In this document: piece by piece, positions 32,817-34,289 of the stretch
Layout of the letters: each line of letters opens with the position of its first letter
Position numbering within the stretch: position 1 is the stretch's first letter
Source of the DNA: an uncultured Acidobacteriota bacterium
GTDB taxonomy: Bacteria; Acidobacteriota; CAIWXX01
NCBI GenBank assembly: GCA_903916735.1
Contig: CAIWXX010000183.1
Coordinates: forward strand, 1 to 64,000
Length of the DNA stretch: 64,000 nt
Direction of reading: 5' to 3'
Made by a program: the position numbers and the translations under genes
Notes under the pieces: model-generated
What the model was told of the DNA's origin: nothing
Seen by the model: the letters and a program-made list of their open reading frames with translations, nothing else
Databases searched by the model: none

Positions 32817-33728
32817 ATGGAAGAATCCGGTCGACGACTTGTGACTCGAGGCGATATGGATGGACTGACGAGCGCGGTTATCATATCGGCCAACGAGGGG
32901 TTCGAGAGGATCAAACTGATTCATCCGCAGGACATCACGAATGCAAAAGTGGAGATCCAGCCGCATGACATTCTCGTCAATGTTCCCTATCATCCGGGCT
33001 GCGCGCTTTGGTTTGACCACCATCAGCACACGGCGACTTATGGGAAACCGCCGGCGACATACAAAGGCGCCTACGGACCTGCTCCCTCAGCAGCTCATCT
33101 CGTCTACGAGTATTATGGTGGGAAGGCCAAGATGCCTCAGTTTGAGGAATTGGTGCGACAAACCGATCGGATGGACTCGGCCGATCTCACCCCCAACGAC
33201 GTACTCACTCCTGGGGGCTATATCGAGCTCGGGTTCACCATCGACAGCCGGACCGGGATCGGGGCGTTTGAGGATTACTTCCTGACTCTGGTGGATCTAC
33301 TGGCCAAGGGTAGTCCAATAGAGCATGTGCTGGAGCATCAGGCGGTCAAGAGACGCTGCCAAATGATGAAAGAGAACGACGCGGCATACCGGCGTGCGAT
33401 CCAGGAGAACAGCCGCGTCGACAGCAACGTCGTGATCACGGATTTTCGTACGCTCGATCCGATTCCCATCGGCAATCGCTTCCTGGTCTACGCCCTCTTC
33501 CCCAATGTGAATGTCTCCTTGCGGTTGCATTGGGGTCCCAAGAAGTCCTTCGTAGTGACTGCTATCGGACATAACATCTTCAAGCGAGGATGCAAGACGG
33601 ATGTGGGCGAGCTGGCGGCGCGTTTCGGTGGCGGGGGGCATCACGGGGCCGGCAGTGTCCCTCTGCCCGTTGAATGCGCCGACGAGAAGATTACGCAGAT
33701 TATCGAGGAACTCAAGCGAAATGGCTGA
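32817..33728 (+). CDS. DHH-family phosphoesterase (exopolyphosphatase/oligoribonuclease-like)
   Basis: The 303-residue protein has DHH-superfamily metal ligands D13/D15 (TRGDMDGLTSAV) and D67-H68-H69 (WFDHHQHT), and a C-terminal DHHA1 substrate-binding domain ending FGGGGHHGAGS. Family members hydrolyse short phosphodiesters such as nanoRNA, pAp, c-di-AMP or polyphosphate; which one applies cannot be told. GGGAGTAGAG precedes the ATG. It sits between rtcB and archease on the opposite strand, so a role in RNA-end metabolism is possible but only positional. Confidence 0.85.
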   Translation: MEESGRRLVTRGDMDGLTSAVIISANEGFERIKLIHPQDITNAKVEIQPHDILVNVPYHPGCALWFDHHQHTATYGKPPATYKGAYGPAPSAAHLVYEYYGGKAKMPQFEELVRQTDRMDSADLTPNDVLTPGGYIELGFTIDSRTGIGAFEDYFLTLVDLLAKGSPIEHVLEHQAVKRRCQMMKENDAAYRRAIQENSRVDSNVVITDFRTLDPIPIGNRFLVYALFPNVNVSLRLHWGPKKSFVVTAIGHNIFKRGCKTDVGELAARFGGGGHHGAGSVPLPVECADEKITQIIEELKRNG

Positions 33729-33869: not shown

Positions 33870-34289
33870 TCAAATATCGAAAATCACCGAGGCGCAGTAG
33901 CCGTCCGGCAACCTCTTTATCTCGAGTCTGTGCAGCGTCACCGCCTTGATCTGACGACGGATATGAATCGCAGAAGAGTGGGTCCAGAGTAAGGTTGAAG
34001 AAATTCTTTGTTCTACAACTGTAGTATTTTTAAATCCCGTGATGAACATCCCTCTGGCGTCGAAGAGAAAAAGCAGCTCGGAAAGCCAGGCATGAAGCAG
34101 CATGTCGATCGATCTTGCATGCACCGAGACACGGCGAGTCCGGACCGTTTCCAGCCGGCGAATCGGCCCCATGAGCGAAAACATGCCGATCGCGGCATTT
34201 TCAAAAAGCCGCGCGCGCGTGCGGCCTTGTGCATGCACTCCAATATCGGCCGTCGTGCCGAATATCCTGAACCCAGCTCGCCGCCGCAG
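33870..34289 (-). CDS. Archease, RtcB activator, with CTG start
   Basis: The 139-residue product reads RRRAGFRIFGTTADIGVHAQ, then LFENAAIGMFSLM, LHAWLSELLFLFDARGMF, KAVTLHRLEIKRLPDGY and ends VIFDI, matching archease along its full length (family about 140 residues). The conserved acidic residues in TADIG, LFDARG and the terminal FDI are present. Archease speeds guanylation and turnover of RtcB. No ATG, GTG or TTG exists upstream of the conserved start; a CTG at 34287-34289 lies 7 bases after AAGGG, and the galU stop is 12 bases upstream in the same frame. A shorter frame from GTG at 34238 would lose the conserved Asp. Confidence 0.85.
   Translation of the reverse strand: MRRRAGFRIFGTTADIGVHAQGRTRARLFENAAIGMFSLMGPIRRLETVRTRRVSVHARSIDMLLHAWLSELLFLFDARGMFITGFKNTTVVEQRISSTLLWTHSSAIHIRRQIKAVTLHRLEIKRLPDGYCASVIFDI

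Follow-up and report, generated by a model that had tools for sequence, protein, structure and literature searches.

The window, the whole stretch of 64,000 nucleotides analysed here from an uncultured Acidobacteriota bacterium, contains an archease gene whose translation most likely begins at CTG. The best reading, to which a probability of roughly 0.7 can be given, is an intact and translated archease gene, the third in a serS-galU-archease row, which has lost its ancestral ATG and is started at the CTG at 34289. Counted from this CTG, the coding sequence occupies 34289–33870 on the minus strand (139 codons, with the stop TGA at 33872–33870). A preliminary description of this DNA gave these coordinates correctly and left the strand unsaid.

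The open archease frame spans 34301–33870 on the minus strand, directly behind galU. It matches the Pfam model PF01951 with 110.8 bits (E = 8.3e-32; the curated cut-off is 25 bits) over profile positions 1–136 of 136, and the match begins at residue 7 of the CTG product. The product started at CTG also matches the archeases of PDB entries 1jw3 and 4n2p. The metal-site residues are retained: D of TTAD, K of KAVT, and the C-terminal Asp-Ile (terminal FDI). The codon of the metal-binding Asp (34247–34245, minus strand) corresponds by alignment to D12 of P. horikoshii archease, where substitution of the metal-binding Asp had the largest effect in mutagenesis (PMC3973293). The position of His9 is occupied by Thr in the archeases of the window, of the relative G001 and of several bacteria. 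Thr is a natural variant; His9 is frequent, not defining for the Pfam model. The gene is the only PF01951 gene in the genome, and none of the plasmid records searched matched. Judged from its sequence, it is an intact and normal gene for a helper of the RNA-joining enzyme RtcB, and its predicted product should activate the single RtcB of the genome.

Upstream of archease lie galU (35177–34302, minus strand, PF00483), which ends with a TAG in frame with archease, and serS (36451–35174, minus strand, PF00587 and PF02403), which overlaps galU by 4 nt. The rtcB gene (32382–30931, minus strand, PF01139, E = 3.5e-171) is a single match in the genome and encodes the RNA ligase that is the expected target of archease. 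Between archease and rtcB, a gene for a PggH-like (DHH-type) phosphoesterase is located on the plus strand at 32817–33728. Its protein resembles PggH of PDB 7d62 (E = 2.8e-58), contains the motifs DMDG, DHHQH, and GGGGHHGAG, and has no Pfam match at 1e-3. In G001, the nearest relative available, archease and rtcB are adjacent and the PggH-like gene is absent from that place. G001 belongs to the same family as the window genome, and no further genome represents the class. As this opposite-strand gene separates what is adjacent in G001, archease of the window has probably ceased to share a transcription unit with rtcB.

Direct reading of the sequence from the galU TAG to the metal-binding Asp finds no ATG, GTG, or TTG in the archease frame. 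From the galU stop to GGGTTC these codons are missing in all frames, so a frameshift would not supply a start. The first canonical codon in the archease frame is GTG at 34238–34236, just past the metal-binding Asp, and the conserved N-terminal segment GFRIFGTTADIG runs through to this codon (34274–34236, minus strand). The longest ORF starting with ATG, GTG, or TTG encodes 122 amino acids from this GTG without the TTAD-I-G segment, and its match to the NCBIfam profile is truncated, beginning at profile position 16. The claim that full-length archease similarity begins before any of these three codons is therefore borne out (PF01951 1–136 of 136, GTG first at 34238). So is the warning that ordinary gene finding would cut the gene short, as the 122-residue ORF is the sole one with a canonical start and lacks TTADIG. 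Ordinary gene finders would probably clip essential first residues of the protein. This is an annotation trap, in which a search limited to ATG, GTG, and TTG yields an archease without its metal-binding Asp.

The GTG is the earliest canonical start, and the 122-residue protein could in principle be the real product. There is almost no chance of this: the metal-binding Asp is present only if translation begins upstream of the GTG, the loss would concern the residue whose substitution mattered most in P. horikoshii (PMC3973293), and the strongly constrained codons upstream would be left unexplained.

These constrained codons are seen in the comparison with G001. A search for genomes of the same genus returned the window genome only. 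The archease of G001 is 52% identical to that of the window. Of the 12 codons that run from GFRIF up to the GTG, 4 are identical, 7 synonymous, and 1 non-synonymous, while the remainder of the gene contains 29 identical, 30 synonymous, and 63 non-synonymous codons. The whole gene gives dN of 0.43 and dS of 1.52 (NG86), a pairwise comparison blind to a very recent loss of the start. The codon comparison is the clearest evidence that the codons upstream of the GTG are translated, on the grounds of 7 synonymous changes against 1 non-synonymous change among the 12.

Two near-cognate codons precede the Asp in the archease frame, CTG at 34289–34287 and ATA at 34265–34263 (both minus strand). The CTG is the first after the galU stop. 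The galU TAG (34304–34302) is followed by AAGGGCCATCAC, the CTG, and then the open frame to TGA. As described earlier and read here directly, the CTG lies 7 bases after AAGGG (34301–34297) and 12 bases after the stop of galU, whose frame it shares. The same description held that only CTG allows a complete protein. CTG is indeed the best supported codon, but ATA is also in frame before TTAD, and the claim was slightly too strong. ATA is a table-11 start and would keep TTADIG intact. Its use is nevertheless highly improbable. A start at ATA would remove GFR of the first strand, which is conserved in G001; the distance from AAGGG is 31 nt; and the local pairing is −3.5 kcal/mol, compared with −5.0 kcal/mol at CTG. 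Besides, archease starts are mostly 10–13 codons before the Asp, and the ATA is at −6 and the CTG at −14.

The Shine-Dalgarno (SD)-like element is AGAAGGG (34303–34297, minus strand), which overlaps the galU stop codon. No 16S gene was found in the genome, so the pairing energies were calculated against an assumed 16S tail, ACCUCCUUU. The pairing ahead of CTG is stronger than that ahead of ATA, ATT, or GTG. With the assumed tail, −5.0 kcal/mol or better is seen in 35% of sampled genes and in 14% of random CTGs. As 14% of random CTGs pair equally well, the SD-like element alone is weak evidence for the CTG. In G001, its counterpart TAGGAG likewise overlaps the galU stop and precedes the ATG. 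The constraint upstream of the canonical codons, the well-placed SD-like AAGGG, and the intact frame with its key residues together make CTG at 34289 most likely the start of archease.

The archease of G001 begins with ATG as MRGFRVFGTTADIG. This ATG is located 11 codons before the Asp, three codons further in than the CTG of the window. It follows the galU stop by 8 nt and does not share the frame of galU. It had been proposed to check in orthologues whether the CTG is conserved. It is not: the window contains CGA at −11, where G001 has ATG. This suggests that the lineage of the window has lost an ancestral ATG, which stood some 11 codons upstream of the Asp. The CTG start would be specific to this lineage, possibly just to its assembly. 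The ATG of G001 also weakens any reading of the CTG as evolved or regulatory, although the CTG of the window itself is not removed by it.

The loss of the start codon might be recent, and archease might be becoming a pseudogene that yields little or no protein. The CGA at the ancestral ATG position and the adjacency to rtcB broken by the PggH-like gene are consistent with such decay. It is quite unlikely, given that the frame is undamaged, the metal-site residues are kept, and the gene is the sole archease in a genome that retains an intact RtcB.

Archease continues the frame of galU beyond the TAG, with no further stop between the two, so a fusion of GalU and archease by readthrough might be considered. 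This can be given very little credence. The galU stop and archease of G001 are in different frames with a gap of 8 nt. TAG is an ordinary stop, which ends 18 of the 47 testable genes in the sampled part of the genome, and no suppressor tRNA is seen in the sampled 0.84 Mb.

The absence of a canonical start is unusual among archeases. In a survey of 57 loci, 50 including the window were scored and 7 were too divergent to score. A canonical start precedes the Asp in 49 of the 49 other scored archeases, mostly ATG at −11 codons, and the window is the sole exception. Apart from their starts, the archease of a relative in the phylum (L192, G214:C399:2560–2976) contains one in-frame TAG, and that of G345:C124 one TAA. 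In one genome, a tandem pair of archease matches with identical scores is found at G087:C130:27981–28910. A literature search for archease together with start codons found nothing relevant.

Within the genome, starts were sampled over 0.84 Mb and compared with 1.09 Mb of G001. Here, 137 non-overlapping ORFs have a match, and about 80 are informative at the N terminus. Among these 80 or so genes, archease alone clearly shows constraint that reaches beyond its first canonical start. Other candidates, judged by eye, are shadow frames, frameshifted fragments, or alignments running on past an aligned ATG. Separately, two adjacent ORF fragments split by a stop at G000:C15:3570–4014 (L075) match one continuous stretch of C43 in G001, and point either to a sequence error or to a gene that is broken.

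Bacterial CTG starts are regarded as very rare. Their annotated frequency is probably an underestimate, as gene finders seldom call them, and well-supported single cases help to judge how far the rarity reflects annotation practice. According to figures quoted by PMC11497404, CUG represents 0.024% of bacterial start codons and its initiation in E. coli yields 0.86% of the protein from AUG. If genuine CTG starts are so rare, the odds of an error per gene may be similar by our estimate. A sequence error or a minority variant might hide an ATG, GTG, or TTG, either at 34289 itself or at a different codon upstream. One wrong base in the assembly, or a strain variant, would look exactly like what is seen here. 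The assembly is a draft in 183 contigs, and each canonical start is one substitution from CTG. An error is still an unlikely explanation, though one to be taken seriously. There are no independent signs of it, the frame is intact from end to end with a sensible junction, the SD-like element sits where G001 has its own, and the frequency on which the argument depends is probably too low.

If translation begins at CTG 34289, the product would be a protein of 139 residues with fMet first. A ribosome that ends galU at the TAG would have AAGGG immediately under it. Initiation 12 nt downstream of galU would probably occur through SD-assisted termination-reinitiation or direct binding of 30S. In published gene pairs, reinitiation still takes place at +13 to +14 nt, though at a reduced level (PMC10666635). 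This would be ordinary initiation at a weak codon, aided by the putative SD beneath the ribosome, with presumed coupling to galU. As CUG initiates in E. coli with about 1% of the efficiency of AUG (PMC11497404), a low level of archease can be expected, and it is plausible that the CTG limits its supply relative to GalU and SerS. It can be speculated further that the CTG is a throttle evolved after the split of archease and rtcB, which would set a low, galU-coupled, and IF3-sensitive level as in infC. Such a role is improbable. The picture of archease or RtcB is unchanged, and the case is a curiosity, not a novel kind of system.

Near-cognate starts are a known feature of IF3 genes; in infC they are conserved and tied to autoregulation by IF3. 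The infC gene of the genome (G000:C97:43828–44031, L182, minus strand, ORF 1123–1740), examined separately from the start sample, contains no ATG, GTG, or TTG upstream of its conserved RVNERIR segment. An ATC comes after AAGGAGG and is probably its near-cognate start. With infC also lacking a canonical start, the genome probably has two such genes, and the organism probably uses near-cognate starts. The two genes are alike in having no sensible ATG, GTG, or TTG. They differ in that near-cognate starts of infC are conserved and autoregulatory, while the CTG of archease is unconserved and has no known control loop.

The archease of G001 shares with that of the window the gene order serS-galU-archease and an SD-like element overlapping the galU stop, in addition to the sequence identity. 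It differs in its out-of-frame ATG and in rtcB following archease directly. MTH1598 of M. thermautotrophicus (PDB 1jw3) and the P. horikoshii archease (4n2p) resemble the archease of the window over the full length and share its metal-binding aspartates and its C-terminal end, and in all three RtcB is encoded in the same gene neighbourhood. MTH1598 contains Gly-Phe at residues 3–4 and begins two residues before strand 1, whereas the archease of the window has three extra residues and the CTG.
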